Shown here: in pieces, positions 1,930 through 49,710 of the stretch
Numbering within the stretch: position 1 is the stretch's first letter
Layout: each line of letters opens with the position of its first letter
Origin: Erythrobacter sp. WG
GTDB taxonomy: Bacteria > Pseudomonadota > Alphaproteobacteria > Sphingomonadales > Sphingomonadaceae
NCBI RefSeq assembly: GCF_026586795.1
Contig: NZ_JAPFGY010000008.1
Span: forward strand, 1-64,000
DNA length: 64,000 bases
Direction: 5' to 3'
Notes under the pieces: model-generated
What the model was told of the DNA's origin: nothing
Database searches by the model: none
Seen by the model: only the letters and a program-made list of their open reading frames with translations
Translations under genes and position numbers: made by a program

Positions 1930-2110
1930 CCCCTCCCGCCTGCGGGAGGGGCCGGGGGTGGGCCCCTTGCTTCTCTAGACCCCCTCCAGCCTCGTCTAAG
2001 TCGGCGCTAGACCCCCTCCAGCCCCCCGTCACCCCGGCGAAAGCTGGCGCTTGGGGCGGGTCAGGGGGGCGCTTTCGGCCCAAAATCCCAGCTTCCGCTG
2101 GGATGACGAT
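1930..2110. repeat. Intergenic palindromic repeats downstream of the bactofilin gene
   Basis: The gap between the convergent bactofilin and acyl-CoA ligase genes is filled with repeats. A GC palindrome of the form CCCTCCCGC-CT-GCGGGAGGG lies at about 1931-1950. A 17-base direct repeat, CTAGACCCCCTCCAGCC, occurs at 1975-1991 and again at 2007-2023. A hairpin TCCCAGC-ttcc-GCTGGGA is at 2086-2103. These resemble the scattered intergenic palindromes common in sphingomonad genomes. The hairpins may also end transcription from both sides, although no clear T-tract is present. Confidence 0.7.
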
Positions 2111-2125
2111 GGCATTGGTCAGGAA

Positions 2126-2141
2126 TGTTTCACGTGAAACA
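2126..2141. promoter_or_regulatory. parS site (outlying copy)
   Basis: Perfect 16-base palindrome TGTTTCACGTGAAACA, the consensus ParB-binding centromere site. It lies ten bases past the end of the acyl-CoA ligase gene, in a convergent intergenic gap about 35 kb from parAB and 45 kb from the predicted oriC. It is identical to the core sites of the 37-40 kb cluster, and the flanking bases extend the palindrome by two on each side. Confidence 0.9.
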
Positions 2142-23065: not shown

Positions 23066-25783
23066 GTGAACTCTCCCCCACCTTTCCGCCCCGCCGATGA
23101 CGCGCGCGTGCGCGCCGTGCTCGGGCCGACCAACACCGGCAAGACGCACCTCGCGATCGAGCGGATGTGCGGCCATTCCAGCGGCATGATGGGCTTCCCG
23201 CTGCGCCTGCTGGCGCGCGAGGTCTATGACCGGGTGCGCGCCATCAAGGGCGACAGGCAGGTTGCCCTCATCACCGGCGAGGAGCGGATCGAGCCGCCGG
23301 ACGCGCGCTATTTCCTGTGCACCGCCGAGGCCATGCCGAGGACAACGGGCGAGGTCGCCTTCGTCGGCCTCGACGAGGCGCAATTGGGCGCGGACCCGGA
23401 ACGCGGGCACATCTTCGCCGATCGCCTGCTCCATGCCCGGGGTCGGGAGGAGACGATGATCCTCGGCAGCGCGACCCTCGAACCGATGGTCAAGGCGCTG
23501 ATCCCCAAGGCCGAGATCACCAGCCGCCCGCGCTTTTCCACGCTCTCCCACGCCGGGATCTGCAAGCTCTCCCGCCTGCCGCGCCGCTCGGCGGTGGTCG
23601 CCTTCAGCGTGGAGCAGGTCTACGCCATGGCCGAGGCCCTGCGGCGGTTCCGGGGCGGCGCGGCGGTCGTCATGGGCGCGCTCTCGCCCGAAACCCGCAA
23701 CAAGCAGGTCGCGATGTTCCAGGCGGGCGAGGTCGATTACATCGTCGCCACCGACGCGATCGGCATGGGGCTGAACCTCGATCTCGATCATGTCGCCTTC
23801 GCCAGCCTCTCCAAGTTCGACGGACGCAGGAAACGGCGCCTGACCCCCTCCGAAATGGCACAGATCGCCGGGCGCGCCGGGCGGCACCAGCGCGACGGAA
23901 CCTTCGGCACTTTGTCGGGCATGGCGAAGGGGGACGGCGAACCCCTCCAGTTTACCGACGAGGAGGTCTACGCGATCGAGGAACACAAGTTCGCGCCCCT
24001 CACCCACCTGTTCTGGCGCGACGCCGATCCGCGCTACGATTCGCTCGGCGCATTGATCGCCGATCTCGAAGCGCGACCCCGCAAGCAGGTGCTCAAGGCG
24101 GCGCCCGAGGCGATCGACCTCGCCGTGCTGAAGCGCCTCGCCGCCGATCCCATCGCTGACACGGTAAAGGGCGCAGGCAGCGTGCGCCGGTTCTGGGAGG
24201 CCTGCTCGCTTCCCGATTTCCGCTCGCTGGGGGTGGAACAGCACGCGCGCTTCGTCGCCCGGCTGTGGGACGACTTGCAGGGGGGATACATCGGCGCGGA
24301 TTTCGTCGCCGCGCGGATCGCCGAGCTTGACCGGATGCAGGGCGACATCGACACGCTGCAGGGGCGGATCGCGGCGATTCGCAGCTGGGCCTACATCTGC
24401 CAGCGGCCCGATTGGGTGCTGGCCCGTGACGAAATGGCCGCGCGGGCACGCGCGGTCGAGGCGAAGCTCTCGGATGCGCTGCACGCGCGGCTGACCGAGC
24501 GTTTCGTGAACCGAAGGACGACTCTCTTGATGAAATCGCTGGGGCAGGACGCGGGCGCGCTGCCCGTCACGCTCGAACCCGACGGGCACCTCACGGTCGA
24601 GGGCGAGTCGATCGGACGGCTCGAGGGCTTCCGCTTCCATGTCGATCCCTCGGCCGGCGTCGCCGACCGGCGGATGCTGCTCGCCGCAGGAGAAAAGGCG
24701 CTGCCCGCGCTGCTTGCGGAACGCGCCGAATGGCTGCTGGCGCAGGGTCTTGCCGAGCTGGCGATCAGCGGCGGCGCGATCCGCTGGCAGGGCCGCGCGC
24801 TCGCCGAGATCACCTTCCCCGGCCAGCCCGGTGCCGGGCACTTCGGCACGCCGCGCCTCGCCCTGACCCGCGACCTTGCGCTTCTGCCCGATGCGGCGAA
24901 GACGAAGCTGGAAGCGGGCCTTGCCGCATGGCTCGAGAAGGAACTGGAGCCCTTGGAGCCGCTGAGGAAACTCGCCGAGGCGGCGCGCGATCCGGCGGCG
25001 GGCTCGCAGGCGCGCGCGCTGGTCATCACCCTGATCGAGGCGCGCGGCGTGATTTCCCGCGAGGAGGCCGGGTTGGAGAATCTCCCCAAGGAGATGCGGC
25101 CCTACTTGCGCAAGCTTGGGGTGACCTTCGGCGCGCTCGACATCTTCGATGCGCCGCTGCTGAAGCCGGCCCCGCGCCGGCTGCTCCACGCCTTGGGCCT
25201 CGATCCGCGCCCGGTGCAGGAGGCGATGCTGCCGGTGCTCGCCGAGGGAAGCTGGGCGAAGGGGCGCCTGCCCGCCGGCTACCGCTATGCGGGTTCGCAG
25301 GCGATCCGGGTCGACCTTGCCGAGAAGATCTTTCGCGCCGCCTTCGAGGCGCGGGCGAAGGTGGCCGAGGCGCATCCCAAGGAGCGGGGCCGCCCGTTCC
25401 GCGTCGACCTCGCGCTGGCGGTTTCGGTGGGTCTGGAGGCGGACAACGCCCGCCGCCTGCTCGGCAGCGCCGGGTTCCGCTGCGAACGCGCCCGCCCGCT
25501 TGCCGAAGGCGCCTTCGGTCCGGCGGCGCCCGACCGCTGGTTCTGGCGGCCCCGCAAGCCCGGGGACAGGGAAGAGCGCCGACCGCCCGCGCGCCATGAC
25601 AACAAGGGCAAGCCGCGCGGCCAGCGTCCGGCAGGGGGCGGCCAGACCCCGTCCAGACCCCCGGTAGAGGGCGTCAAGCGTGGCCCAAGGCCCGCCCAGA
25701 CCCCCGCCAGACCCCCCCTAGACACCGGCCCGGCGCGCGCCGGCGGCGCCTTCGACAAGCTGGCGGACCTGTTCAAGCGATGA
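23066..25783 (+). CDS. Suv3-like helicase-related protein
   Basis: A 905-residue SF2 RNA/DNA helicase similar to mitochondrial Suv3. Walker A is GPTNTGKT (residues 20-27), Walker B VGLDEAQL, motif III LGSATL, motif V TDAIGMGLNLDLD and motif VI QIAGRAGRH. Beyond about residue 420 it has a long C-terminal extension ending in a low-complexity, Pro/Arg/Gly-rich tail. The tail DNA carries two copies of a 28-base dispersed repeat. The start is uncertain: GTG 23066 fits the family, and ATG 23021 is an alternative. It overlaps the S4 gene by ATGA and leads the cluster helicase-S4-fdxA-carD, conserved in alphaproteobacteria. Confidence 0.85.
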   Translation: MNSPPPFRPADDARVRAVLGPTNTGKTHLAIERMCGHSSGMMGFPLRLLAREVYDRVRAIKGDRQVALITGEERIEPPDARYFLCTAEAMPRTTGEVAFVGLDEAQLGADPERGHIFADRLLHARGREETMILGSATLEPMVKALIPKAEITSRPRFSTLSHAGICKLSRLPRRSAVVAFSVEQVYAMAEALRRFRGGAAVVMGALSPETRNKQVAMFQAGEVDYIVATDAIGMGLNLDLDHVAFASLSKFDGRRKRRLTPSEMAQIAGRAGRHQRDGTFGTLSGMAKGDGEPLQFTDEEVYAIEEHKFAPLTHLFWRDADPRYDSLGALIADLEARPRKQVLKAAPEAIDLAVLKRLAADPIADTVKGAGSVRRFWEACSLPDFRSLGVEQHARFVARLWDDLQGGYIGADFVAARIAELDRMQGDIDTLQGRIAAIRSWAYICQRPDWVLARDEMAARARAVEAKLSDALHARLTERFVNRRTTLLMKSLGQDAGALPVTLEPDGHLTVEGESIGRLEGFRFHVDPSAGVADRRMLLAAGEKALPALLAERAEWLLAQGLAELAISGGAIRWQGRALAEITFPGQPGAGHFGTPRLALTRDLALLPDAAKTKLEAGLAAWLEKELEPLEPLRKLAEAARDPAAGSQARALVITLIEARGVISREEAGLENLPKEMRPYLRKLGVTFGALDIFDAPLLKPAPRRLLHALGLDPRPVQEAMLPVLAEGSWAKGRLPAGYRYAGSQAIRVDLAEKIFRAAFEARAKVAEAHPKERGRPFRVDLALAVSVGLEADNARRLLGSAGFRCERARPLAEGAFGPAAPDRWFWRPRKPGDREERRPPARHDNKGKPRGQRPAGGGQTPSRPPVEGVKRGPRPAQTPARPPLDTGPARAGGAFDKLADLFKR
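25642..25723 (+). repeat. Two copies of a dispersed 28-base repeat inside the helicase gene
   Basis: Copies lie at 25642-25669 and 25696-25723. Each consists of two CCAGACCCC units followed by TAGAG or TAGAC. The second copy differs from the minus-strand copy inside aroE (49123-49150) at only three of 28 positions. Related CTAGACCCCCTCCAGCC units are at 1975-2023. The copies encode the low-complexity tail segments QTPSRPPVE and QTPARPPLD. Confidence 0.75.
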
Positions 25784-35327: not shown

Positions 35328-36290
35328 TCAGATCTCGCCGCCGGTGAGGCGCTGGCACACCAGGTCGAGCTGGTCGAGCGTGGTGTAGCGGATCGTGATC
35401 GTCCCCTTGCGCGGATCGACCTCGGGCTTGATCCGCACCGACAGGCCGAGAAACTCCTCGAGATGCTGCTGCACGGCGAGGATATCGGCGTGCTCGGCCG
35501 GCAGGTAGGGCGCGTCCTTGGGCCCCTCGGCGGGCTTGCCCGGCTTGCGGGTCAGGGTCTCGATATCGCGCACCGAGAGCCCTTCGGCGACCGCGACCTC
35601 CGCCAGTTCCAGCGCATCGTCCCGCCCGATCAGCGCGCGCGCGTGGCCGACCGTCAATCCGCCCTGCTCGATCAGGTCCAGCACCCGCTCGGGCAGCGAC
35701 ATCAGCCGCATCACGTTGGCGACATGGCTGCGCGACTTCTCGACCATCTTGGCGATATCGACCTGGATCATCCCCTCCTCCTCGGAGAGACGGTGATAGG
35801 CGCGCGCTTCCTCGACCGGCGAAAGGTCCTCGCGCTGGAGGTTCTCGATCAGCGCCAGCGCCGTCACCTCGCGATCGGAGAGGTTGCGGACCAGTGCCGG
35901 GATCTCGTGCAGCCGCGCCTTCTGCGCCGCCCGCCAGCGCCGCTCCCCGGCGACGAGCTGGAAGCCGCTGCCCTCCGGATGCGGGCGGACGATAATCGGC
36001 TGGATCACGCCGCGCGTGGCGATCGACGCGGCCAGTTCGGCGAGCGCGGTCTCGTCGAAATATTTGCGCGGGTTGCCGGGCAGCGGCTTGATCGTCGCGA
36101 TGGCGAGCATCCGGAGCGGCGAGCTGCCGTCCGCCGGCGCCTCGCCCGGCTCGTCGCGGCGTACCAGCGGTTCCTCCCGCCGGGTTTCTCCGAGCAGCGC
36201 GCCGAGCCCCTTGCCGAGCCGCCGCGGCTTGTCCGCCGCACCGCGCGAAATGGAAGCATTTTCAGTGACTTCAGTGCTATTCTCGGTCAT
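35328..36290 (-). CDS. parB: Chromosome partitioning protein ParB
   Basis: A 320-residue ParB/Spo0J CTPase-type clamp that loads at parS. The N-terminal region holds PRRLGKGLGALLGE (ParA-stimulating arm). The CTP-binding ParB/Srx domain contains NPRKYFDETALAELAASIAT and VAGERRWRAAQKA. The KorB/HTH domain reads ALIENLQREDLSPVEEARAYH and IAKMVEKSRSHVANVMRLM, and the C-terminal dimerisation domain ends the protein. The ATG overlaps the parA stop (ATGA). The nine parS sites in this window are its expected targets. Confidence 0.97.
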   Translation of the reverse strand: MTENSTEVTENASISRGAADKPRRLGKGLGALLGETRREEPLVRRDEPGEAPADGSSPLRMLAIATIKPLPGNPRKYFDETALAELAASIATRGVIQPIIVRPHPEGSGFQLVAGERRWRAAQKARLHEIPALVRNLSDREVTALALIENLQREDLSPVEEARAYHRLSEEEGMIQVDIAKMVEKSRSHVANVMRLMSLPERVLDLIEQGGLTVGHARALIGRDDALELAEVAVAEGLSVRDIETLTRKPGKPAEGPKDAPYLPAEHADILAVQQHLEEFLGLSVRIKPEVDPRKGTITIRYTTLDQLDLVCQRLTGGEI

Positions 36291-37063
36291 GCCGCCTGTC
36301 TTTCTGCGGGAAATCGCCCGATCAGCTCGCGCGCGAGGGCCATATAGGCGCGGCTGCCGGTGCAGTGCTGGTCGTAGATCAGCGCCGGGAGCCCGTGGCT
36401 CGGCGCCTCGGACAGGCGCACGTTGCGCGGGATCACGGTTTCGAACACCAGCTTGCCGAGGCAGTCGCGCACATCGTCCGACACCTGGTCGGTCAGGCGG
36501 TTGCGCCGGTCGTACATGGTCAGCGCCACGCCGATGATGCCGAGATCCGGGTTGAAGCGCTGCTGCACCTGATCGACCGTCTGGAGCAGCTGGCTGAGGC
36601 CCTCCAGCGCGAAGAACTCGCATTGCAGCGGCACCAGCAGGGTATCGGCGGCGCACAGGGCGTTCAAGGTCAGCAGGCCCAGCGAGGGCGGGCAGTCGAT
36701 GAAGCAGATGTCGTGCCCGGTGTAGCCGGTCAGCGCCTTGTCGAGGCGGTGCGTGCGCCCTTCGACCGCCACCAGCTCGACCTCGGCCCCCGACAGGTCC
36801 ACCGTCGCGGGGACGATATCGAGCTTCGGGATGGACGAACGCATGATCGCGCTCTCCAGCGTGATCTCGTCGACGAGCAGGTCATAGCTCGATACCTCGC
36901 GGCTCGCGGCGTGCACCCCCAGCCCAGTGGAGGCGTTGCCCTGCGGATCGAGGTCGATAAGCAGGGTTCGCCACCCCGTCGCGGCCATCGCCGTGGCGAT
37001 GTTGATCGCGGTGGTGGTCTTGCCCACCCCGCCCTTCTGGTTGGCTATCGCGATGGTCAGCAT
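36287..37063 (-). CDS. parA: Chromosome partitioning ATPase ParA
   Basis: A 258-residue ParA/Soj ATPase. The deviant Walker A KGGVGKTT is at residues 10-17 with the signature lysine, and Walker A' DLDPQGNAS and Walker B CFIDCPPSLGLLTLN follow. It drives segregation of ParB-parS complexes by ATP-dependent DNA binding. It is followed immediately by parB and preceded by rsmG, the usual order rsmG-parA-parB near alphaproteobacterial origins. Confidence 0.97.
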   Translation of the reverse strand: MLTIAIANQKGGVGKTTTAINIATAMAATGWRTLLIDLDPQGNASTGLGVHAASREVSSYDLLVDEITLESAIMRSSIPKLDIVPATVDLSGAEVELVAVEGRTHRLDKALTGYTGHDICFIDCPPSLGLLTLNALCAADTLLVPLQCEFFALEGLSQLLQTVDQVQQRFNPDLGIIGVALTMYDRRNRLTDQVSDDVRDCLGKLVFETVIPRNVRLSEAPSHGLPALIYDQHCTGSRAYMALARELIGRFPAERQAA

Positions 37064-37121: not shown

Positions 37122-37748
37122 TTACGCCTTCACGATGATCCCCGCGTCGGAATCGGTCAAGGAATGTTTCACGTGAAACATTGCCCGAATCGAAGGCTTC
37201 AAGCTCTCCAACTCCTGCGCCGCCGAGCGCCCCTTGGGCAACACGTAGACCGTGCCCCTTGTGGAGAAGGGTGCGGATAGCTCGAGAAGCTTGGGGAGCG
37301 GCGCGAAGGCGCGTGCCGAAATGGCCCGCGCCGGGAAGGCGGCAACCCGCTCCAGACGCTGCCCCTCGACCCGGCACTTCGGCAAGCCGAGCGCCTCTAT
37401 GGCGCGGTTCAGGAAGTCAACCCTACGGGCGCGGGACTCGACCAGCACCACCGGCATTCTCGGGCAAAGCGCGGCGATGACGAGGCCGGGAAAGCCTGGG
37501 CCGCTGCCGAGATCGAGCCACGGGCCTCCGGCGTTAGGACCCAATGTTTCACGTGAAACATTTTCGAGAAGCTGCGCGGAGTCCGCAATGTGGCGCTGCC
37601 AGAGGTGCGGCTCGGTGGCCTTGGCGATGAGGTTCTGGCGCTGGTTCTCGTCCAGCACCAGCGCGGCGAAGGTGTCGAGCCTCGCCATCCCCTCGGCATC
37701 GGTCAGCCCGGCGACATAGGCGCGGGCCTCCTCCTCGGTCCGGATCAC
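37122..37748 (-). CDS. rsmG: 16S rRNA (guanine527-N7)-methyltransferase RsmG
   Basis: A 208-residue SAM-dependent methyltransferase (GidB) modifying G527 of 16S rRNA. The SAM motif is [16 protein letters not shown], followed by [16 protein letters not shown] and [20 protein letters not shown] start at 37748 overlaps the mnmG stop (GTGA). Two perfect parS sites lie inside the reading frame: 37545-37560, read as the peptide NVSRETL, and 37165-37180 near the C-terminus, read as MFHVKH. The gene thus codes for both protein and centromere. Confidence 0.94.
37165..37180. promoter_or_regulatory. parS site within the 3' end of rsmG
   Basis: Perfect TGTTTCACGTGAAACA, encoding MFHVKH near the RsmG C-terminus. 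It is about 100 bases upstream of the parA start and the closest site to parAB. Confidence 0.95.
37545..37560. promoter_or_regulatory. parS site inside rsmG
   Basis: Perfect TGTTTCACGTGAAACA, 380 bases from the previous site, read in the RsmG frame as NVSRETL, upstream of the SAM-binding motif. Confidence 0.95.
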
Positions 37749-39610
37749 GCCGCCTGCTGCCCGTCGGAAATCCGGCGCCGGGCGTGGACGAGGAGCGCGG
37801 AGAGCGCTGCCGGCGTGACCCCCGGCACCCGCCCCGCTGCGGCCAAGGTGCCCGGTGCCGCCTTGGTCAGACGCTCGACCATCTCGTTCGAGAGGCCCGG
37901 CACCACGCCATAGGGGAAGTCCGCGGCCAGCGGCAGCGCCTCGCTGGCGCGCAGATCGCGGAGCTCGGCATCCTGCCGGGCAAGATAGGGCGCATAGGCG
38001 GCGTCTTCCGCCAGCTCGTCCGCCAAGGCCGGATCGCTGGCGGCCAACTCGCCGAGCCACGGCGCGAGTGCATCGGGCGTGACTCCGTCGAAGCGGAGCC
38101 ACTCGGCCAGCGTCTTTACCCCGTGATCGTGGCGCACCGGGAGGCCGAGATCGGCAAGCTCCCGCGCGTGGATCCGCTCCGAATGTTTCACGTGAAACAT
38201 TTCCCGCAAAGCCTCGCGCCGCTCCCACCAGGCGCGCCGCTCATCGCCAATGCACCCTGCGGCGATGCCCAGACCCGTCAGTCGGGTCGCGGCATTGTTG
38301 GCCCGCAGGCGCAGACGGTATTCCGCACGCGCGGTGAGCATCCGGTAAGGCTCGGTCACGCCCTGCAAGGTCAGGTCGTCGACCATCACCGCGATGTAGC
38401 TGTTCGCGCGGTCGAGCACGGGCGCCGCCTTGCCCAGCGCCGCCGCCGCAGCTTCAAGCCCCGCGACCAGCCCCTGCGCCGCTGCCTCCTCGTAGCCGGT
38501 GGTGCCGTTGATCTGCCCGGCACAATAGAGCCCGGGGATCGCTCGCAGCTGCAAGTCCGGCGTGAGGGCGCGCGGGTCGATGTGGTCATATTCCACCGCA
38601 TAGCCCGGCTGCACGATCCGCACCGCCTCGCAGCCCGGCATGGTCCGCACCACCGTCTCCTGCACGTCCACCGGGAGCGAAGTGCTGATCCCGTTGGGAT
38701 AGACGATATGCGTGTCGAGACCCTCGGGCTCGAGGAAGACCTGATGCCCCTCCCGGTCGCCAAAGCGGTGGATCTTGTCCTCGATCGACGGGCAGTAGCG
38801 CGGCCCTGCCGCCGCGATCGCGCCGGAGAACAGGGGCGAGCGGTGGAGGTTGGCACGGATCGCGTCGTGCCCGGCGTGGGTGGTGCGGGTGATGGCACAG
38901 AACACCTGCGGGTTCAGGCGGCGCGCCGTCAGCGGCGACATGGTCCAGCCCTCGTCGTCGGAGGGCTGTTCCTCGAGCGCGGCCCAATCGATGGTCCGCC
39001 CGTCGAGCCGCGGCGGGGTGCCGGTCTTGAGCCGCGCCATGGGCAGGTCCGCGCCGCGCAGCTGTGCTGCGAGGCGCTTGGCGGCGTTCTCGCCGATGCG
39101 CCCGCCTTCGAATCGCTCTTCACCGCGGTAGAGAATGCCGCCGAGAAAGGTCCCGGTGCACAGCACCACCCGCCCCGCACCTAGGATCGTGCCGTCCGCC
39201 AATGCGAGCCCGGCGACCCGTCCGCCCTCCAGCACCAGCGCGGCGGCTTCGCCCTGCACCAGCGTGAGGTTCTGCTGCGAGCGGACCGTCTGCTGCACGG
39301 CCGCCTTGAACCGGACCCGATCGGCCTGAACGCGCGGGCCCCACACGGCGCTCCCCTTCGAGCGGTTGAGCATCCGGTAATGGATCGCCCCGGCATCTGC
39401 CGCGCGTCCGATCACCCCGTCCAGCGCATCAACCTCGCGCACGAGGTGGCCCTTGCCAAGACCGCCGATCGCCGGGTTGCAGCTCATCGCGCCGATGGCG
39501 GCGAGGTCGAAACTGACGAGCGCGGTGCGCGCGCCCATCCGCGCGGCGCCGCAAGCCGCTTCCACCCCGGCGTGCCCGCCGCCGACAACGATGACATCGA
39601 AATTCGCCAT
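37745..39610 (-). CDS. mnmG: tRNA uridine-5-carboxymethylaminomethyl synthesis enzyme MnmG
   Basis: A 621-residue FAD enzyme (GidA) that with MnmE modifies wobble uridine U34 of several tRNAs. FAD-binding motif [19 protein letters not shown] is at the N-terminus, with [32 protein letters not shown] and [15 protein letters not shown] later. The parS site at 38184-38199 is embedded in the C-terminal part and read as MFHVKH. Three further parS sites lie in the 178-base gap between mnmG and mnmE. Confidence 0.96.
38184..38199. promoter_or_regulatory. parS site inside mnmG
   Basis: Perfect TGTTTCACGTGAAACA, translated in the MnmG frame as EMFHVKHSE. Confidence 0.95.
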
Positions 39611-39678
39611 GACGGCCGCCAGATAGGGGCCAGAACCGCAATCGTCAAAGCTGTTTGGGTCTGGTTCTCGGGCTAGAA

Positions 39679-39694
39679 TGTTTCACGTGAAACA
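39679..39694. promoter_or_regulatory. parS site, first of the intergenic triplet
   Basis: Perfect TGTTTCACGTGAAACA in the mnmG-mnmE gap. The next copy starts 38 bases later. Confidence 0.95.
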
Positions 39695-39716
39695 TTGGGG
39701 TCGGACTGGGAGCCAA

Positions 39717-39732
39717 TGTTTCACGTGAAACA
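39717..39732. promoter_or_regulatory. parS site, second of the intergenic triplet
   Basis: Perfect TGTTTCACGTGAAACA, 38 bases after the first and 37 before the third copy. Confidence 0.95.
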
Positions 39733-39753
39733 TTGAGGCCAGATCCAGAGCCA

Positions 39754-39769
39754 TGTTTCACGTGAAACA
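39754..39769. promoter_or_regulatory. parS site, third of the intergenic triplet
   Basis: Perfect TGTTTCACGTGAAACA, ending 19 bases before the end of mnmE. Confidence 0.95.
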
Positions 39770-39788
39770 TTGGCCGCAACGACGCGCT

Positions 39789-41075
39789 TCACTTCCCGAT
39801 GCAGAACCGCCCGAACAGCGCGTCGAGCATATCCTCTGTCGTCGCCCTGCCGACCAGTCGATCAAGCGCCAACCTTGCGCGGCGCAGTTCCTCGGCGACC
39901 AGCAGGGGATCGGAAAGGCGCTCCGCCGCCGCCAGCGCCTCGGCCACTTCCGCAAGGCGCGCGTGCTGGCGCGCGTTCAGTGCCGCCTCTCCGGGCTTCG
40001 GCAACCCCTGACGCGCGGCCGCAACCAGTGCTTGCTTGAGCATCGGCACACCAGCCCTGGTGATCGCCGATACCACGAAGCGTGCGCTGCTCTTCGGGTG
40101 GATTGCAGCACGATCGGCCTGTGCCGCGATCTCCCACGCACTCTCCGGTCCCTCCCCTTCGGGGCCAAGCCAGAGGATCACATCCGCCCGCGCCAGGGCC
40201 CCGCGGGCCCGGCCGATGCCGATCGCCTCGATCGGATCGGCGGCCTCCTCATCCCTCAGGCCAGCGGTATCGACGAAGGTGAACGGCACTCCGCCAATCG
40301 CAACGGAGCGCTCGATCACGTCGCGGGTCGTGCCGGCAATCGGCGAGGTGATCGCCGCCTCGCTGTCGACCAGAGCGTTGAAGAGGGTCGACTTGCCGGC
40401 ATTCGGCGGGCCCGCAAGAACCACGCGAAAGCCCTCGCCCAGCCGCTCGGAACGAGGGCGGGCAAGCCATTCGCTCAACTCTTCCTTGAGGGCAGCAATG
40501 TTCCACGTGAAACATTCGGGCAGATCGGCAGCGTCCTCCTCGTCGGAGAAATCGAGCACCCCCTCGACCTCCGCGGAGAGCGCCAGCACCCGCTCCCGCC
40601 AGGCCTCCACCTGCCGCGACAGGGCGCCGCCGGCATTGACGAGGGCCGCGGCCCTTTGCCATTCGGTCTCGGCGGCGAGCAGATCGCCCAGACCCTCGGC
40701 CTCGGCAAGATCGATGCGGCCATTGGCAAAGGCGCGGCGGGTGAATTCCCCGGGCTCGGCGCGGCGCAAACCGGGCAGCGCCGCCAGCGCAGCCTCGACG
40801 GCCGCGATGACTGCCCTGCCCCCATGGCAGTGGAACTCGGTGAGGTCCTCACCCGTCGCCGTGTTCGGGCCGGGAAACCACAGCACCAGCGCCTCGTCGA
40901 GCGGGGCTCCGCTCGCGTCGCTCAGCCGCGCCAGTGATGCGCGGCGCGGTGCGGGCACCCGCCCGGCAAGCGCCAGCAACGCCGAATAGGCGGCCGGGCC
41001 CGACACGCGGATTACCCCCACGCCGGCCGGCGGCGCGCCGCTCGACAGCGCGAAGATGGTCGGCGTCTGCGGCAT
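39789..41075 (-). CDS. mnmE: tRNA modification GTPase MnmE
   Basis: A 428-residue GTPase (TrmE) that works with MnmG. The N-terminal formyl-THF-binding domain (TIFALSSGAPPAGVGVIRVSG, FPGPNTATGEDLTEFHCHGG) is followed by the helical domain and an inserted G domain with AGPPNAGKST, IAGTTRD and DTAGLRD. The invariant C-terminal CIGK is present. A one-mismatch parS (40499-40514) lies in the helical domain and is read as ECFTWN. Confidence 0.96.
   Translation of the reverse strand: MPQTPTIFALSSGAPPAGVGVIRVSGPAAYSALLALAGRVPAPRRASLARLSDASGAPLDEALVLWFPGPNTATGEDLTEFHCHGGRAVIAAVEAALAALPGLRRAEPGEFTRRAFANGRIDLAEAEGLGDLLAAETEWQRAAALVNAGGALSRQVEAWRERVLALSAEVEGVLDFSDEEDAADLPECFTWNIAALKEELSEWLARPRSERLGEGFRVVLAGPPNAGKSTLFNALVDSEAAITSPIAGTTRDVIERSVAIGGVPFTFVDTAGLRDEEAADPIEAIGIGRARGALARADVILWLGPEGEGPESAWEIAAQADRAAIHPKSSARFVVSAITRAGVPMLKQALVAAARQGLPKPGEAALNARQHARLAEVAEALAAAERLSDPLLVAEELRRARLALDRLVGRATTEDMLDALFGRFCIGK
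40499..40514. promoter_or_regulatory. parS-like site inside mnmE (one mismatch)
   Basis: TGTTCCACGTGAAACA differs from the consensus by one base in the left arm. It is encoded within MnmE (ECFTWN on the minus strand). The same variant recurs at 41952. Confidence 0.8.
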
Positions 41076-41081
41076 TCGTGC

Positions 41082-41333
41082 CTATTCGGAGGGCTTGCTT
41101 CCGGACGCCGCCTTCATCCCGCCTTCCACGAAGCTCTGGAACAGCTTGAGCCCAACCTGCCCCATCGGGGCGAGCGCGGTTGCATATTGCTGAAGCTGGG
41201 TCGGGTCCGAGACCCCGCGCATCGCCTTGGCGATGTTCTCGACATAGACGCTGTTGGCGGCGCTCACGTCGGGCAGGCCCATGAAGCTGCGCGCCTCCTC
41301 GGGGGTGCACTCGATCTCGATGTTGATCTTCAT
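41082..41333 (-). CDS. DUF6489 family protein
   Basis: An 83-residue protein starting MKINIEIECTPEEARSFMGL and containing PDVSAANSVYVENIAKAM and QVGLKLFQSFVEGGMK, as in the alphaproteobacterial DUF6489 family. It is soluble, without cysteine pairs or a signal peptide apart from one N-terminal Cys. The function is unknown. It lies six bases upstream of mnmE on the same strand and is probably co-transcribed with it. Confidence 0.8.
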   Translation of the reverse strand: MKINIEIECTPEEARSFMGLPDVSAANSVYVENIAKAMRGVSDPTQLQQYATALAPMGQVGLKLFQSFVEGGMKAASGSKPSE

Positions 41334-41436
41334 GGTGGCGGTCTCCTCTCGCTTGCCTCTCCATTTGCGCTTGGCAGGCGGGCAAGGCAAGCGATAGGCT
41401 CCCGGGCAGGATCGAACACTGCAAAGAGAGATCGCC

Positions 41437-42135
41437 ATGAGCCTCAACGAAACCATCCCCACCCTCGCCGGCGATGCCAGCTTCGGCGCCTATGTCGCTC
41501 GCCCGGAGGGCACACCGCGCGCGGCGATCATCGTCATTCAGGAGATCTTCGGGGTGAACCCGGGCATCCGCCGCAAGTGTGACAAGCTGGCCGCCGAGGG
41601 CTATCTCGCGGTCGCTCCGGACCTGTTCTGGCGGCTCGAGCCGGGCATCGTGCTCGATCCCGACGTGGAGAGCGAGTTCCAGCGCGCGCTCGGCCTGTTC
41701 GGCGAGTTCGACCAGGACGCCGGAATTCGCGACATCGAGGCGACCATCCACCACATCCGCCGCACCCTCGGCGTCGCCAAGGTCGGCTGCGTCGGCTACT
41801 GCCTCGGCGGGCGCCTCGCCTACATGACCGCAGCGCGCACCGATATCGATGCCTCGGTGGGCTATTACGGCGTCGGGATCGACGGGCTGCTGCACGAGAA
41901 GCACGCGATCGCTCATCCGCTGATGCTGCACATCCCGACCGCGGACGGCTTTGTTCCACGTGAAACACAAGCAGCGATGCACGAGGGTCTGGACGATCAC
42001 CCCAAGGTGACGCTCCACGATTACGAGGGCCTCGACCACGGCTTTGCCACCGAGATGGGCGAGCGCCGCCGGGAGGAGGCCGCCAACCTCGCCGACAGCC
42101 GCACCGCGGCCTTCTTCGCCGAGCACCTCGAGTGA
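41437..42135 (+). CDS. Dienelactone hydrolase family protein
   Basis: A 232-residue alpha/beta hydrolase. The nucleophile Cys is in GYCLGG, the Asp in HIPTADGF and the His in LDHGFA, the triad of dienelactone hydrolases. The N-terminal IIVIQEIFGVNPGIRRKCDK is typical. A parS-like site (41952-41967) is encoded as FVPRETQ directly after the acidic triad residue. The physiological substrate is unknown. The downstream gene starts within its stop codon (GTGA). Confidence 0.88.
   Translation: MSLNETIPTLAGDASFGAYVARPEGTPRAAIIVIQEIFGVNPGIRRKCDKLAAEGYLAVAPDLFWRLEPGIVLDPDVESEFQRALGLFGEFDQDAGIRDIEATIHHIRRTLGVAKVGCVGYCLGGRLAYMTAARTDIDASVGYYGVGIDGLLHEKHAIAHPLMLHIPTADGFVPRETQAAMHEGLDDHPKVTLHDYEGLDHGFATEMGERRREEAANLADSRTAAFFAEHLE
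41952..41967. promoter_or_regulatory. parS-like site inside the dienelactone hydrolase gene (one mismatch)
   Basis: TGTTCCACGTGAAACA, the same one-mismatch variant as at 40499, read here on the plus strand as FVPRET. It is the parS copy nearest the predicted oriC, about 5.1 kb away. Confidence 0.8.
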
Positions 42136-47076: not shown

Positions 47077-47402
47077 GGCGTTCCTTAGAGCAAATCAATT
47101 CAATTTATAAAAGGATGGATGGAGTCTGTTGGCCCTGTGGAAAGCGGGAATTACCGGCGCGTCCGCGATTGTCCCCGATTGGCCACCGTCCCTCAGCCCC
47201 CTGTCGAATCCGTGCGGCTCCGACGTCAAGCGGGCTTTATCCCCACTCTTCCCAGCCTGTCGATAAAACTTGTCCCGTGTGGGCAAATGACCCGGTGAAA
47301 AGGCGTGGGGTCGGGGGCAAATTCGCTCACCAGCTTGTCCGGCAACCCCTCCCGTGGTTTATGCCTGCATCTGTCCACAGGGGTCCGGACGATCCACGAG
47401 CC
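47077..47402. other. oriC: Predicted chromosomal replication origin (oriC)
   Basis: A 326-base gap without open frames between divergent hemE and the PEP synthetase regulator gene. The flanking order hemE-origin-RP001-maf-aroE-coaE-dnaQ is the conserved layout of the Caulobacter and Rickettsia origins. An AT-rich stretch, about 78 percent AT over 47085-47116, is a possible unwinding element beside hemE. DnaA-box-like nonamers are weak: TTATCCCCA (47237, one mismatch to TTATCCACA), CTGTCCACA (47371), CTTTCCACA (minus, 47136-47144) and TTGCCCACA (minus, 47278-47286), each with two mismatches. Two GANTC methylation sites are at 47122 and 47206. The call rests mainly on synteny. Confidence 0.72.
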
Positions 47403-48832: not shown

Positions 48833-49710
48833 CCCGCCGCCTTCGAGAGGGCTCAGGACAGGCTTATGCCGAGGTGATCGGCGATCCCATCGCACAATCC
48901 AAGTCCCCGAAAATTCACGGTTTCTGGCTCGAGAAACTCGGGATCGATGCTGACTACCGCGCGTGCCACGTGACCCCCGGTTCCCTCCCCGACCATATCG
49001 CCGCGCGCCGCGCCGACCCGCTGTGGCGGGGTTGCAACGTCACCATGCCGCACAAGCAGGCGGTGATGCCGCTGATCGATGCCATCGCGGCGCCAGCGGA
49101 CCAGATCGGCGCGGTGAACACGGTCTACCCGGGGTCTGGCGGGGGTCTGGAGGGCACCAACACCGATGCTGAAGGCTTCCTGGAGCCGCTTGGGCGGGAC
49201 CTGGCGCGGGCACACTATTTCCGCATGGCCCGCATCCTCGGCACAGGCGGCGCAGCCCGCGCGATCATCAGCGCGCTGGCGAAGGAGGGCTTCACGCTGG
49301 TTGTCGCCGGGCGAGACCCGGGCAAGGCCCGCGCGCTCCTCGAAGAACTGGCCCCTGCAGGCGAGCACCACGCCATCGACATGGCCCACTTCGCCGATCC
49401 CACCGACTTTCCCTTCGACGACCGCGAGGGCTGCCTCGATCTGGTCGTCAACGCCTCGAGCCTCGGCATGACGGGCCAGCCGCCGCTCGCCTTCGACTGG
49501 AGCCACGCCCCGCCCGGCGCCATCGCCTACGATATCGTCACCGCGCCGGTGGACACGCCCTTCCTTCAGAGCGCGCGCGCGAGGGGCCACCGGACCATCG
49601 ACGGGCTGGCCATGCTGATCGGGCAGGCGGCCATCGCCTTTGCGCACTTCTTCGGCCAGCCGCCCCCGCGCGAACATGATGCCGAACTGCGGAAAATCCT
49701 CACCTCATGA
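48829..49710 (+). CDS. aroE: Shikimate dehydrogenase
   Basis: A 293-residue NADPH enzyme reducing 3-dehydroshikimate to shikimate. Motifs seen are GDPIAQSKSPKIHGFWL, NVTMPHKQ with the catalytic lysine, GTGGAARAI for NADP and VNASSLGMTG. The region GAVNTVYPGSGGGLEGTNTD contains a 28-base dispersed repeat on the minus strand (49123-49150) exactly in the loop before NTDAEGF. It shares ATGA overlaps with maf and coaE. Confidence 0.95.
   Translation: MTRRLREGSGQAYAEVIGDPIAQSKSPKIHGFWLEKLGIDADYRACHVTPGSLPDHIAARRADPLWRGCNVTMPHKQAVMPLIDAIAAPADQIGAVNTVYPGSGGGLEGTNTDAEGFLEPLGRDLARAHYFRMARILGTGGAARAIISALAKEGFTLVVAGRDPGKARALLEELAPAGEHHAIDMAHFADPTDFPFDDREGCLDLVVNASSLGMTGQPPLAFDWSHAPPGAIAYDIVTAPVDTPFLQSARARGHRTIDGLAMLIGQAAIAFAHFFGQPPPREHDAELRKILTS
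49123..49150 (-). repeat. Copy of the dispersed 28-base repeat inside aroE
   Basis: Read on the minus strand this begins CCAGACCCCCGCCAGACCCC and ends TAGAC. Its first 20 bases equal those of 25696-25715 in the helicase gene, and 25 of 28 positions match overall. In the AroE frame it encodes a glycine-rich loop (PGSGGGLEG region). Confidence 0.75.

Follow-up and report, generated by a model that had tools for sequence, protein, structure and literature searches.

Centromeric and dispersed parS sites in Erythrobacter sp. WG and its relatives

A 64,000-nucleotide stretch of the Erythrobacter sp. WG genome (contig NZ_JAPFGY010000008.1, positions 1 to 64,000; hereafter the window) contains the parA and parB genes together with a cluster of eight copies of a 16-bp palindrome, the predicted ParB target parS. 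The same palindrome recurs far outside this cluster, and from the sequence patterns described below we consider it reasonably probable that ParB in this clade has two classes of chromosomal target, a centromere and a chromosome-wide dispersed set.

Dispersed parS sites in the genome and its relatives

A search of the genome at up to two mismatches identifies 69 sites, with none returned by a reversed-pattern control. All 69 were retrieved; 60 are perfect, nine are TGTTCCACGTGAAACA in one or other orientation, none has two mismatches, and the palindrome centre is ACGT at every one. Eight sites lie in the parAB-linked cluster and 61 are dispersed (L037 and L044 being one locus, duplicated or assembled twice, with 96% identity over 294 bp), which departs from the usual confinement of ParABS sites to the origin (ori) domain. 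An earlier note on this DNA had expected the 16-mer to be concentrated at the cluster, and had held that its being common genome-wide would tell against this; with 69 sites against none in the control, and only eight of them at the cluster, the expectation fails. The identification of the 16-mer as a putative parS nonetheless survives the genome-wide search. The ninth copy reported in the window, at 2126, is present and exact but belongs to the dispersed set and not to the centromere.

Comparison with the related genome G022 suggests that these positions are old. There, 62 sites are listed and 52 are perfect copies of a different palindrome, TGTTCCACGTGGAACA (our count), among them seven of the eight sites beside its parAB genes (418-423 kb). 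Matching by flanking gene places 39 of the 61 dispersed sites at a fetched G022 locus (36 of 52 G022 loci); removal of two weak matches and one palindrome-free locus leaves 36 sites and 34 G022 loci, 30 of which carry the perfect G022 form (our count). Two of the matched sites, L035 and L056, lie inside genes. By this comparison the sites have been kept in place while dozens of them changed letters jointly with those of the centromere. A joint switch of dispersed and centromeric sites is most simply caused by a single trans-acting reader, and that reader is most likely ParB. We note that the idea of a ParB recognition helix that tracks the palindrome type fits only loosely: low-count genomes have AN[IL]QRL and high-count genomes mostly ANMMRL, G022 with its CC/GG-type sites has ANMHRL, G000 has ANVMRL, and G086 and G076 have ANMQRL.

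Within the genus, high site numbers mark one clade. Among 114 genomes of the genus, searched at up to one mismatch, all 45 with a ParB at least 76% identical hold 10-89 sites (median 28), and all 64 with a more distant ParB hold 1-9 (median 3), the identity cut-off having been chosen after the data were seen; the five genomes without a full ParB match hold 0, 1, 22, 30 and 36. A ParB tree built for 49 chosen genomes groups the 42 that have ten or more sites in a single clade (support 100/98). The nearest named relatives of the protein are from Erythrobacter and Porphyrobacter (79-81% identical; 79% for Erythrobacter oryzae COR-2). Three clade members, G003, G011 and G106 (site counts of 57, 63 and 89 among the three), have one ParB match apiece. 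Of 396 genomes sampled from the order, 354 belong to other genera, and these hold 0-7 exact copies of TGTTYCACGTGRAACA. In a sample of 385 genomes of the class, a few from other orders have more: exact TGTTYCACGTGRAACA is found 79 times in G697, 18 times in G678 and in G836, 13 times in G669, and nine times each in G472, G759 and G785; G678, G836 and G669 belong to other families, and their copies may be parS or hairpin repeats.

Chromosomal layout was measured in G022 and G003, which are single-contig assemblies, the Erythrobacter sp. WG genome being a draft. The dispersed sites number 54 in G022 and 55 in G003, roughly one every 54 kb. They are distributed flatly from parAB to the antipode, and they avoid one another: gaps shorter than 10 kb number none in G022 and one in G003 where about nine are expected, an outcome seen in none of 20,000 simulations for G022 and having P = 5e-5 for G003 (the G003 chromosome was taken as 3.1 Mb, its actual length being 3,090,363). 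In Erythrobacter sp. WG one of 29 within-contig gaps is below 10 kb and the next smallest is 11,950. That sole tight pair among the 61 sites is on contig C57 (L018, 9349 and 9386), where two perfect copies 37 bp apart are accompanied by one array of the type described below. Other regularities were looked for with less result. We do not claim a weakening of sites toward the antipode (P = 0.002 in G003, 0.5 in G022), spacing more even than the 10-kb rule alone would give is weakly indicated (coefficient of variation 0.76 in G022, P = 0.02; 0.85 in G003, P = 0.15), and an orientation like that of FtsK-orienting polar sequences (KOPS) is not seen among 19 distinct composite sites of G003, whose strands, counted by eye, divide 5:5 on one arm and 4:5 on the other.

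Phased motifs beside the dispersed sites

Many of the dispersed sites are flanked on one side by a run of 11-bp units, GGGGGTCTRGN. The hexamer GGGTCT is found within 140 bp of 51 of the 61 sites at least once and of 42 at least twice (43 and 40 of 50 sites in G022). The polarity is nearly invariant, with 142 copies on the array side pointing away from parS in Erythrobacter sp. WG and 126 in G022, against three in each genome that point toward parS on either side. Of 91 pairs of neighbouring copies, 63 have a spacing of exactly 11 bp (71 of 83 in G022), and the phase of the copies relative to parS, modulo 11, is 0-2 for 128 of the 142 copies and 0-1 for 112 of the 126 in G022. Array dimers lie mostly near parS, 35 of the 45 in Erythrobacter sp. 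WG being within 200 bp of a site, a zone that makes up 0.8% of the genome. In G022, which has 25 array dimers yet no perfect TGTTTCACGTGAAACA, TGTTCCACGTGGAACA or a one-mismatch form of it lies beside 10 of 12 fetched arrays. Across the 114 genomes of the genus, array dimers occur in 29 and the parS-array composite in 25, all of which have at least ten sites (control, none). A motif resembling a G-quadruplex (G4) is present on the array side of 30 of 61 sites (25 of 50 in G022) and on the opposite side of one (none in G022), with a background of eight in 914 tiles.

The 52 array-side sites lie in mixed gene contexts: as judged provisionally by our own simple codon-usage caller, 5 are within genes and the others in convergent (21), tandem (23) or divergent (3) gaps; they include the centromeric site at 41952, which has a lone unit. 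Because the context is mixed, a Rho-utilisation site on the C-rich strand of the array is not favoured. At seven of seven array-side sites with a T-to-C change (L059, L061-L065 and 41952) the change falls in the palindrome half away from the array, and the array-adjacent half seems to be the more constrained. Tandem 11-bp repeats are also a feature of parC of plasmid R1, in which 11-bp iterons are read by ParR, although that locus is without a parS-type palindrome.

A second motif in the same register is found in two relatives that have no array dimers, G035 and G066, from which 20 listed dispersed sites were fetched (12 and 8). Here a GTTC is displaced outward from the inner half-site by exactly 11 bp (with its mirror GAAC at offset 6) in nine flanks of the 12 G035 sites and six flanks of the eight G066 sites. 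One G066 site, L303, is embedded in a palindrome of about 36 bp (by eye). This outer half-site is absent from all 115 centromeric sites inspected (8, 8, 78 and 21). From the distribution of the array and the outer half-site it follows that both mark dispersed, and not centromeric, sites in an 11-bp register.

The parAB cluster and other features of the window

All nine positions that the earlier note had given for the 16-mer were exact in a word search of the window, as was their division into perfect copies and one-mismatch forms (Table 1); there are no further matches at up to three mismatches in the 64,000 nucleotides, and shuffled versions of the window are expected to hold 0.05 sites. Pfam supports parB, parA, rsmG (GidB), mnmG (GIDA), mnmE, the dienelactone hydrolase gene and hemE (URO-D). 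The three-domain ParB with ParA alongside and the 16-mers close by agree with a ParABS locus, and relatives have parS at similar positions by parAB (fetched and counted, with placing by eye). The eight-site cluster is thus an ordinary centromere next to parAB. The view that it fixes the segregation locus holds for a centromere adjoining parAB but not for a sole locus, since 61 of the 69 sites are elsewhere. Its claimed distance of 5-10 kb from the origin agrees with that to the gap adjoining hemE, which by analogy with Caulobacter is the likely origin and contains two one-mismatch DnaA-box-like words (47237 and 47258); the origin is not proven, because the window as a whole is rich in such words (six against 2.1 expected, a number reached by four of 100 shuffles).

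Arrays without a palindrome are also present in the window (Table 1) and on contig C58, which rules out the idea that arrays are exclusive to parS neighbourhoods. Those in the window may be relics, chance occurrences or independent uses of the array.

Table 1. Coordinates of parS sites, arrays and associated genes in the window
Feature	Position	Strand	Remarks
Imperfect G-rich 11-bp units, in two pairs	1975..2025	-	On one flank of the 2126 parS, with the first unit 111 bp off; distant, poor array example
Dispersed parS, perfect	2126..2141	.	Convergent gap between bactofilin gene and AMP-binding enzyme gene
Array-type 11-bp G-rich units	25642-25725	-	No palindrome nearby
parB, 320 aa	35328..36290	-	ParB_N, HTH_ParB, ParB_C (Pfam)
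parA	36287..37063	-	Pfam
Centromeric parS, perfect	37165..37180	.	Near 3' end of rsmG frame
Centromeric parS, perfect	37545..37560	.	Within rsmG
Centromeric parS, perfect	38184..38199	.	Within mnmG
Centromeric parS, perfect	39679..39694	.	mnmG-mnmE gap; first in triplet spaced 37-38 bp
Centromeric parS, perfect	39717..39732	.	mnmG-mnmE gap
Centromeric parS, perfect	39754..39769	.	mnmG-mnmE gap
Centromeric parS, one mismatch (TGTTCCACGTGAAACA)	40499..40514	+	Within mnmE
Centromeric parS, one mismatch (TGTTCCACGTGAAACA)	41952..41967	+	Within dienelactone hydrolase gene
Candidate replication origin	47077..47402	.	hemE-adjoining gap; by analogy with Caulobacter
Array-type 11-bp G-rich units	49121-49150	+	No palindrome nearby; frame resembles shikimate dehydrogenase (by eye)

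Alternative explanations and a possible role

Several observations weigh against two target classes read by one ParB. Site counts differ within the clade, from 10 to 89, and the matching of loci to G022 rests on a single shared flanking gene, with paralogues possible. The accessory motifs are not universal: no GGGTCT lies within 140 bp of 10 of the 61 dispersed sites in this genome or of seven of 50 in G022, many clade members have no array dimer, and the outer half-site is found in only five flanks in Erythrobacter sp. WG and four flanks of 46 strict-pattern G022 sites. Nor are the arrays fully specific, since the dimer control is not quite empty (4 against 45 in Erythrobacter sp. WG, mostly 0 elsewhere), one array dimer is found in G026, which has eight sites and is not among the high-count genomes, and palindrome-free examples make up four of the seven short chains in contiguous Erythrobacter sp. 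WG DNA totalling 216,850 bases, two of 12 fetched array loci in G022 and one of eight in G025, with one or two mismatches in the palindrome at six of the eight G025 loci. Finally, a parS added at mid-arm is reported to lower fitness in Caulobacter, and parS is described as lying almost exclusively near ori (PMC5815017); tens of dispersed working sites therefore need explaining.

The palindrome-free arrays and the mismatched G025 palindromes are what would be expected if the array were the main functional part, as a G-quadruplex or a site for a DNA-binding or wrapping protein, with parS an accessory that brings ParB. The rigid 11-bp repeat, its fixed polarity and the G4-like motif enriched on the array side are consistent with such an arrangement, but the 20 fetched G035 and G066 sites retain the palindrome with hardly any array, and of the two elements it is the palindrome that is kept more exactly in Erythrobacter sp. 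WG and G022; we regard this reading as unlikely. A different role is offered by nucleoid occlusion of the Noc type, in which dispersed sites bound by a ParB-family protein label the chromosome so that division over DNA is blocked. About 60 dispersed 16-bp palindromes and a presumed ParB-family reader do recall the scattered Noc-binding sites (NBS) reported for Bacillus in PMC8429893. The sites are nevertheless TGTTYCACGTGRAACA, that is parS and not NBS, the one sequence being common to centromere and dispersed sites and carrying a phased array at many of the latter. The aligned ParB proteins also keep KSRSH and the G before HxR/HAK, corresponding to the R and G of ParB where Noc has Q and R (residues placed by eye after PMC7383237). 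NBS are further reported to be least concentrated at mid-cell, the site of division (PMC8429893), whereas neither G022 nor G003 shows depletion opposite parAB, and a Noc-type function seems distinctly improbable.

The remaining alternatives treat the sites as repeats. A hairpin or terminator family resembling repetitive extragenic palindromic (REP) elements could contain the parS word by chance and not be read by ParB, and such a family seems real in G697, a member of another family: a 400-kb portion contains 43 TGTTTC-N4-GAAACA palindromes with varied centres (ACGT 22, TCGT 10, ACGA 8, GCGC 3), 32 of them adjoined by a T-run. These G697 hairpins with T-runs (stretches L306-L325) are a pitfall for the counting of parS by word search. 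The scarcity of divergent gaps among intergenic array sites here is in keeping with terminators, but we think it very unlikely that this extends to Erythrobacter sp. WG, where the palindrome centre is invariant, a T-run adjoins only one of the 69 sites, two-mismatch forms are lacking, and the sequence change was shared with the centromere even at the intragenic L035 and L056. Multiplication within the clade of a mobile element carrying parS, similar to a miniature inverted-repeat transposable element (MITE), would account for a parS and array layout common to many loci, and blastn finds flank matches of 22-90 bp between sites as well as the L037/L044 duplication; these matches also soften our initial impression that flanks share nothing beyond the motif. 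Judged by eye and not one by one, however, the short matches resemble array sequence, and longer common flanks are confined to L037/L044 and overlapping windows. Since 39 of the 61 loci have a flanking-gene match in G022, sites avoid one another and there are no two-mismatch copies, the mobile-element explanation is largely refuted and hardly credible.

We therefore return to a ParB with two classes of target. The centromeric class would be the eight parS sites packed into about 4.8 kb next to parAB and close to the presumed origin, and the second class the tens of single sites (61 here), at least about 10 kb apart, mostly intergenic and held in place in evolution. ParB-CTP (cytidine triphosphate) clamps would load at each site of the second class and form a small local island, with the accessory motif holding, to one side and on the same helix face, either an additional ParB subunit or a partner. 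Such a motif could give the islands properties that a centromere does not have, for example being held in place or loading condensin as opposed to being pulled by ParA, and the islands may then organise or anchor the whole chromosome. More tentatively, the chromosome may be many-centred, with about 60 ParB islands, many of them a parS with a phased one-sided array absent from the centromere, that tile it and organise or segregate the whole, and with ParB, centromere and dispersed sites switching sequence together between species; we offer this as possible but doubtful.

Comparison with better-known systems brings out both likeness and difference. Caulobacter crescentus has a parS cluster about 8 kb from ori, with clustered sites numbering at least five, or seven when putative ones are counted (PMC5815017), and resembles Erythrobacter sp. 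WG in its parAB genes and clustered sites near the origin, but here there are 61 further sites genome-wide, many with accessory motifs. ParB targets off the main cluster are reported in Pseudomonas aeruginosa, with six imperfect parS away from oriC (parS5-10), although the ori domain holds eight of its ten sites (PMC4368675). Hundreds of half-parS are also reported to be bound in that species, in a paper that places the great majority of parS in the ori domain (PMC7022226). Those sites are either more than one nucleotide off the palindrome or 7-bp half-sites, whereas the 61 here are perfect or one-mismatch copies and genome-wide; P. aeruginosa parS2 and parS3 are TGTTCCACGTGGAACA, the G022 palindrome (PMC4368675). 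Streptomyces coelicolor and Listeria innocua also have many parS, 22, but near the origin (cited in PMC5815017). In literature on Sphingomonadales, Erythrobacter and Porphyrobacter we found no report of such a dispersed parS set, and none among the wider titles listed.

The usual account, as given in PMC5815017, is that parS lies near the origin since segregation starts there, and that extra sites are harmful. This account is contradicted by a clade that comprises 45 or more sequenced genomes, each with 10-89 sites, dispersed wherever positions were examined; the clade is a natural test of ParB action away from the centromere. The joint switch in G022 offers an experiment of nature on how what is most likely one protein co-evolves with about 60 sites, and the phased array is a candidate cis-element in its own right.

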